From assembly GCA_963924555.1 (NCBI GenBank), contig OZ004591.1, forward strand, positions 1,364,001 to 1,428,000: a stretch of DNA of 64,000 nucleotides. The letters are read 5' to 3'. The stretch is from Crambe crambe (Eukaryota > Porifera > Demospongiae > Poecilosclerida > Crambeidae). The translations under genes were made by a program, and so were the position numbers. The notes under the pieces were generated by a model that worked only from the letters and a program-made list of their open reading frames with translations, searched no databases and was not told the DNA's origin. Below are positions 132 to 64,000 of this stretch, piece after piece; the stretch's first letter is position 1, and every line of letters begins with the position of its first letter.

Positions 132-664
132 CATCATTATTCATGATACTAATGTCCTTAGACCTGTTAGGGAAGAGGTTGACAAAAGACTCCATAGTGG
201 TCAGCTCAGCAGTAAAAATCTCATCATTCTCAGTGATGTTATCATCAGAGATCGAGATGGACACACACATTTGTGTCCCAATGCTTGTATTCATGGGGAA
301 GACAAGAGGAGAGTTTACAATCATCTGGAAGTCATTCAGACCTGCATATCAATTTGAGAAAGTCGTAGTGAACGATAATGGGATCCAATTGGAAAATCAG
401 TCCAAAGAGTTCATGGGAACAGTTGTTTCTCTATACAATATAGGTATTTGCACACACATTCTGCTCTGCTTTTCAAATTGACCAAAACAACAACAACAAC
501 AACAACAACAACAACTTTACCTGCACCATTAGGAATAGTGTTAGTGTTCAAGATGACAGTGACATTAATGGCAAGATCTCCCGTTACAAGAACTGCACAC
601 ACACTGATCGACCCAACAGATTCAGAGACCTCAAGAGTGTCACAGGACAGAGAGATGTCAGCAA
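132..664 (-). CDS. Calx-beta domain T1 (two exons)
   Basis: First-half exon 521-664 (144 bp) and second-half exon 132-341 (210 bp). The second half shows SISDDNITENDEIFTAEL and ends in IMNNDG, a fairly complete acidic Calx-beta signature. The donor at 131 is GTGAGT, so bases 1-131 are intron leading to an exon beyond the window. The intron at 342-520 holds a CAA-triplet run (about 484-515) directly beside the donor of the first-half exon. This is the most C-terminal domain seen. Confidence 0.85.

Positions 665-64000: not shown

Follow-up and report, generated by a model that had tools for sequence, protein, structure and literature searches.

The 64,000 nucleotides of Crambe crambe DNA analyzed here, referred to throughout as the window (C14:1,364,001-1,428,000 of OZ004591.1; plus and minus positions are counted from its start), are best read as the middle of a single gene, X, predicted to encode a secreted, very acidic and sequon-rich adhesion or matrix rod, about 134 Calx-beta-like domains long, which lengthens through unequal crossing-over. 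We put the probability of this reading at roughly 0.7. What can be demonstrated at the level of sequence, and carries the argument, comprises an open gene model, phase-1 exon pairs, amplification of modules relative to a paralogue, Y, purifying selection, ligand-like positions and shared polybasic sites.

The part of X within the window (132..64000, minus strand), modeled with half-domain HMMs, consists of 147 complete exons and one more that is truncated at the right edge (64159-63947). The complete exons divide into 73 second-half and 74 first-half pieces, both parts of a single split first half being counted among the latter, and the coding total inside the window is 25,965 nt, or 8,655 codons. 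These specify 73 Calx-beta-like domains in full, up to domain 131 of 134, together with a fragment of one more, domain 58. All exon lengths are divisible by 3 except those of the two pieces of the split exon. The original prediction, made from the letters of the window, had proposed a 73-domain array read through about 148 exons and about 8,650 residues, with stop-free exons flanked by GT-AG, lengths in multiples of 3 apart from one split first half, and neither gene end inside the window; the spliced model agrees on each of these points, within a whole gene that is larger, at 134 domains. The split belongs to domain 124 and is the only divided half-domain exon of X: a first piece of 47 nt (7095..7141, minus strand) is followed by the only phase-0 intron and a second piece of 91 nt (6941..7031, minus strand), the two summing to 138 nt, and a homologous split is modeled in Y too. 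An array intron of the window also contains a perfect AG dinucleotide run of 391 bp (48,877-49,267), which stops a few bases before the next exon.

A six-frame search with half-domain HMMs was carried out over a 264-kb region (C14:1,274,001-1,538,000). It gave 162 second-half matches at E <= 1e-3, without exception on the minus strand, and 158 first-half matches at E < 0.1, of which a single one fell on the plus strand; matches of the two kinds alternate almost all along the region. When a six-seed first-half HMM was relaxed to E <= 1, the plus strand received 12 of 190 matches. Inside the window the counts were 73 and 73 on the minus strand and zero on the plus strand and in five first-order shuffles, the training set of the HMMs overlapping partly with the exons that they detect.

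Extension of both flanks, which had been suggested as a check, produced a complete model of X running from a start codon at +125,924 to a stop at -3,719 (C14:1,489,924 to 1,360,281). The model spans 129.6 kb and comprises 274 exons, 48,219 coding nt and 16,072 residues, arranged as a signal-peptide-like exon (judged by eye from the first exon), 134 domains, a C-terminal region of about 190 residues and the stop; beyond domain 131, three further domains and the C-terminal region lie outside the window. Introns are in phase 1 in 272 of 273 cases, with one in phase 0, and have a median size of 254 bp and a maximum of 2,228 bp. All introns of the final model have GT-AG ends, and with a matrix built from X's own exons 7/273 acceptors and 1/273 donors (8/546 sites) scored below 0. 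For a minority of the exons the precise acceptor was chosen between near alternatives, those agreeing across copies of a type being preferred, a choice that biases toward regular exons. No stop occurs within the 16,073 codons of X, against about 1,077 expected from how often stop triplets occur in the introns. Chance open frames as the sole explanation were ruled out by these stop counts together with the shuffle controls of the HMM search, and a bacterial or symbiont origin of the array by its place on a 7.33-Mb contig and the presence of introns throughout.

The predicted protein has a mass of 1.70 MDa, a pI of 4.05 and 385 N-glycosylation sequons. Its C-terminal region is encoded by four exons after the last domain and contains cysteines; the 191 residues gave no Pfam match at E <= 1 and no NCBIfam match at E <= 0.1, and the single PDB match, a phage capsid at E 0.76, was not believed. 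The highest 19-mer hydropathy near the end of X is 1.64 (residue 15,899), which is about the customary cut for membrane segments, and ordinary X domains reach 2.2; a single membrane anchor may lie near this end. The C-terminal region occurs at six genomic sites, of which C14 has three and C5, C13 and C1 have one apiece. N-terminal relatives were seen at further places (C3 at 5.60 and 5.82 Mb, C11 at 6.84 Mb and C5 at 3.40 Mb), so the family may exceed the six places that have the C-terminal region.

Blastp clustering of the 134 domains of X at 60% identity defined domain types that are arranged in higher-order modules. The layout is two single domains, seven copies of FGH, eleven single domains, an array of A-C-D-E-B units amounting to 87 domains, five single domains, four I-type domains and four single domains. 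The amplified five-domain array occupies 9070..64000 of the window on the minus strand and has a full extent of 87,626 to 9,070 (domains 35-121); its final unit is ACD, and two short AB units lie inside it. Successive A domains are spaced 3.8-6.4 kb apart, and 2.1 kb apart at the two short units. The four I-type domains (127-130) lie at 847..4213 and domain 131, the last of the window, at 132..664, all on the minus strand.

Paralogue Y lies downstream of X (-15,855 to -62,383) and has 79 exons, 4,592 residues and 37 domains, whose order by best match is ..FGH...........ACDEBACD.....IIII.... When the extra FGH and ACDEB copies are subtracted from X, the order of Y is obtained. The three-domain block thus stands at one copy in Y and seven in X, and the five-domain block at about 2 and 17. 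The 3' end of a third gene, Z, falls at C14:1,536,295, and Z was read to about 1,573,400. The read part starts with counterparts of domains 28 to 34 (for 32, no second half was sighted), ACDEB, ACD and ACD, and continues with 122-125, a D domain, 122-125 repeated, 126, one I domain and 131-134, the repeated 122-125 being a local duplication of Z's own. A whole-genome search for the C-type domain, counted as second-half matches of at least 57% identity among the best 150 of 210 candidates, assigned at least 17 copies to X, 2 to Y, 3 to Z and 1 to C3, and the three C-type-bearing genes X, Y and Z lie within about 270 kb. Their differing module and domain counts indicate that the three genes have been stretched differently on one common plan.

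Other coding sequence was met around these genes. The interval between X and Y (-9 kb to -14 kb) holds a gene that matches FHA (68.7 bits) and, just below threshold, a dsRNA-binding domain; we take this gene to resemble kanadaptin. Beside X on its other flank (+128 kb to +150 kb; C14:1,492,000-1,514,000) are repeated open frames, two of which were scanned and match fibronectin type III and immunoglobulin domains, matches from which these frames may be a small receptor gene cluster. Elsewhere in the genome, a Calx-beta match of 39.5 bits (C9:4,224,783-4,225,019, minus strand) falls in a 10,128-codon open frame that may be a giant exon or a giant gene lacking introns. A stretch with dense Calx-beta matches and many whole-domain exons (C10:6,553,826-6,575,440, plus strand) has an exon layout unlike that of X and holds the strongest Calx-beta match among the best 150 of 1021 candidates, at 88 bits.

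The regions of X that differ in repeat type (FGH, ACDEB and terminal) could in principle be separate units, in which case several shorter genes or transcripts would share the region and a single chain of 134 domains would never be made. We regard this as quite improbable. A genome search found one signal-peptide exon of this type and one C-terminal region between +125.9 kb and -3.7 kb, the largest intron in that interval measures just the 2,228 bp given above, and the identical order is preserved in Y as one compact model. A distinct gene, that with the FHA match, sits between X and Y, which indicates that a true gene boundary at this locus looks different. The converse, one gene spanning +126 kb to -62 kb, was ruled out by the same gene and by a second signal-peptide exon between X and Y. 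We therefore read X as probably a single gene of 134 domains.

Assignment of these domains to the Calx-beta family is uneven at the level of Pfam. The scan covered 19 domains, among them one representative of each repeated type and the single-copy domains of the window, plus the C-terminal region, and was judged against the curated Calx-beta (PF03160) cut-off of 27 bits; 12 of the 19 reached it and seven fell below. Above the cut-off were types C (37.1 bits), D (35.1 bits) and H (27.3 bits, by 0.3 only), domain 128 (61.7 bits), which was the one I-type domain scanned, and domains 2, 123, 124, 125, 126, 131, 132 and 133 (34 to 69 bits, domain 131 at 38.6). Below it were types A (12.5 bits), B (13.9 bits) and E (17.9 bits) and domain 122 (17.0 bits), and types F and G and domain 25 gave no Calx-beta match at E <= 1. 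Domain 1 gave no Pfam match at E <= 0.01. With the type scores extended to all copies, 35 of the 74 domains that touch the window exceed 27 bits and 39 do not, a narrow outcome on the refuting condition set in the original prediction, namely scores under the Calx-beta threshold for most domains. Scanned on their own, the 73 second-half exons yield 42 with a Calx-beta match at E <= 0.01; a match to phage family PF25682 in three of the 73 (best E 0.0094) was taken as chance.

Other comparisons join the weaker domains to the stronger. An HMM built from terminal domains 122-133 only recovered all 122 others at E < 1e-3 (minimum 14.1 bits), E-values that refer to a search set of just 134 sequences. 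Against PDB, a profile of the 73 second-half exons found Na/Ca exchangers in 10 of 10 matches at E <= 1 (best E 8e-7), as did domain 128 in seven of seven. The acidic columns compared are presumably the calcium-ligand residues of CBD1 of the exchanger NCX1; among the 134 domains, the residues aligned with these ligands are kept as Glu in 127, Asp in 113, Asp in 131, Glu in 133 and Glu in 99. Together, the HMM recovery, the exclusive matches to exchangers and the kept ligand positions speak for a shared ancestry of all domains. Since all five ligand-like residues occur together in only 74 of the 134, many domains may bind calcium weakly or not at all. Cysteines at two fixed columns are present in 110 domains, and types F and G (14 domains) are without the pair.

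The newest event in the array appears to be a duplication of 32 domains, 55-86 against 87-118. Copy 1 extends from 41468 to 64000 and continues past the window to 67,942, and copy 2 occupies 12724..38777, both on the minus strand; blastn within the region aligns them in two stretches totaling 18.8 kb at 99.2% identity and along a further 7.5 kb at 97.4%, so that the block differs at 0.8-2.6% of bases. Intron divergence is 1.7% with the last four introns included, three of which are more than 40% different because they are located beyond the duplicated block. An older joint is also visible. The second half of domain 87 (38039..38281, minus strand, whole codons) is a chimeric exon whose A-type body continues in frame with a tail of the E type, TLTIQDVLQEG; the intron after it has an E-type-like start, as judged by comparison of tail and intron start. 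The same A/E chimera is found outside the window in domain 55, and at both domains C, D and most of E are absent. From the sequence, we read the chimera as the product of an in-frame unequal exchange within an exon that was afterwards copied. Also inside X, between exons 85,694 and 83,465, an E-type first-half exon is present once more in inverted orientation, on the plus strand (+85,140 to +85,244), and looks like a relic of rearrangement.

The 32-domain duplication could alternatively be a false tandem join of two haplotypes, leaving a true count nearer 102 domains. The copies differ by merely about 0.8% over 18.8 kb, which is within the range of sponge alleles. The 26-kb copies, moreover, exceed the mean HiFi read length of 6.9 kb, as derived from the read totals of the genome note (67.94 Gb in 9.82 million reads; PMC12166358). 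Such a join is nonetheless unlikely: the window has no N, the junctions keep both module register and reading frame, and identity falls to 97.4% across the one 7.5-kb part. The rest of the array is large in either case, and X would still hold 102 domains if the block were an artefact. We accordingly treat the block as probably a true duplication.

Selection on the amplified domains was assessed by pairwise comparisons within types, which are not independent of one another; these gave dN/dS values of 0.39 for A, 0.43 for B, 0.27 for C, 0.45 for D, 0.20 for E, 0.32 for F, 0.38 for G and 0.78 for H. Seven of the eight amplified types thus fall at 0.20-0.45, with H as the exception. The two halves of the newest duplication differ by 40.5 synonymous and 48.5 non-synonymous changes (dN/dS 0.38, p = 1.3e-5); for subsets, p rises to 0.004 with the first 29 pairs and to 0.21 with just the first 22. 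Compared by region, X and Y show dS of 0.14-0.25 and dN/dS of 0.34-0.66, and mean dS among module copies inside X is 0.05-0.19. From this low dS, most of the amplification seems about as old as the split between X and Y, or younger; homogenization between copies would yield the same picture. The original prediction had held that intact frames through so many copies argue for selection or very recent expansion, and each half finds support, the first in the values for seven types and the newest duplication as a whole (less so in its first 22 pairs), the second in the low module dS and the 0.8-2.6% divergence of the newest block.

A different view of the same array is that it grows as a neutral by-product of unequal crossing-over and that the extra domains are without use. 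One domain type varies among paralogues at 17, 3, 2 and 1 copies (lower bounds), a frame-neutral intron layout leaves expansion unpunished, and type H has a dN/dS of 0.78. We consider growth of this kind rather unlikely, given dN/dS well under 1 in the other seven amplified types, the deficit of non-synonymous changes across the newest duplication (p = 1.3e-5) and the presence of a stop in none of the 134 domains. More useful than the size of X is that one domain type occurs at 1, 2, 3 and 17 copies within one genome, with recombination joints still readable, so that the paralogues, set side by side, offer a direct test of how a giant modular protein grows and of what this growth costs or brings.

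Lysine plus arginine make up only 2% of X, yet domains 28 and 126 each hold one polybasic run of at least four K/R residues, exactly two in all, whereas shuffling X 200 times produced none (mean 0.0). Both sites are furin-like, and the second, KKRR|Q, lies in the second half of domain 126 (4472..4705, minus strand). Y likewise has just two such runs, at homologous positions, and both sites were found in the read part of Z. The two sites flank the five-domain array, and the FGH array precedes the first.

We propose that X forms an extracellular rod, stiffened by calcium, that serves in sponge cell or matrix adhesion; its mode of action would resemble that of the Calx-beta portion of sponge aggregation factors. 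Kinship and composition are what suggest the adhesion role. Proprotein convertases may cut X at the two polybasic sites and so release the five-domain array, which would be the long central piece of the filament, from the N- and C-terminal parts. Such cuts would leave fragments of about 3,260, 11,640 and 1,140 residues. Because nearly all introns are in phase 1, unequal crossing-over between copies would add or remove domains with the frame intact, and length would change readily. It is conceivable, as a long shot, that X is an accordion gene in which individuals differ in the number of three- and five-domain modules and the length or valency of the convertase-freed array serves as an individual or strain label in adhesion. 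If copy number does vary between individuals, this could connect to self/non-self discrimination in sponges.

Among known systems, the sponge aggregation factors are closest. In common with them, X comes from a demosponge, carries Calx-beta domains in tandem and is (by prediction) extracellular; it is acidic and sequon-rich, and its paralogues are clustered on one chromosome. Cleavage of the precursor is known for aggregation factors (Microciona MAFp3/MAFp4 and the Amphimedon AqAF genes) and would be a further likeness if X is processed. Might X itself be an aggregation factor that acts in self/non-self recognition? X is a predicted secreted Calx-beta array from a poecilosclerid sponge, Microciona belongs to the same order, and its entry of 15 Calx-beta repeats is presumably an aggregation factor. 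We doubt this identity, however. A von Willebrand type D (VWD) domain, though absent from some members, and a Wreath domain serve to define aggregation factors, and none of the 30 VWD matches in the genome (E <= 0.001) is on C14. The C-terminal region of X has no Pfam or NCBIfam match, as described above. X was not filed under the aggregation factors because C14 gave no VWD match, VWD being the domain on which the comparison was made; X differs from them also in size, its 134 domains comparing with the 15 of the longest entry for Microciona in the table of PMC2805694. Elsewhere in the genome, a VWD match and a Calx-beta match occur on the same strand within about 11 kb (C10:8,053,404-8,064,642, minus strand) and mark a candidate aggregation-factor gene.

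The Calx-beta domains of Na/Ca exchangers number two per protein and are cytoplasmic. CBD1 and CBD2 of NCX1 belong to the same family by sequence, are the sole PDB relatives found and share mostly kept acidic positions with X, from which they differ in the cysteines that 110 of the 134 X domains have at two fixed columns. ADGRV1/VLGR1 carries 35 CalX-beta motifs according to PMC9262510, in agreement with the count of about 35 given in the original prediction, and X too is giant, mostly of Calx-beta domains and predicted to be extracellular; the end of X matches no family, and hence there is no sign of a seven-helix receptor end of the ADGRV1 type. The remark in the original prediction that no ordinary Calx-beta protein with the domain count of the window is known also agrees with what was found, the largest array seen in print being that of Nematostella A7SVI9, with 41 repeats in 4,953 aa (table of PMC2805694). 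That protein is likewise a long tandem array from an animal, at about a third of the count of X, which has more than three times as many. No named sponge Calx-beta giant was found among the matches listed in the literature searched, for which subscription journals were mostly outside scope, and no paper was found joining Crambe crambe and Calx.

Titin-like giants have very long chains of same-phase exons and higher-order domain repeats. X shares both features and departs from these proteins in its domain and in its predicted extracellular place. It is also unlike them in that the number of its modules differs strongly among nearby paralogues.
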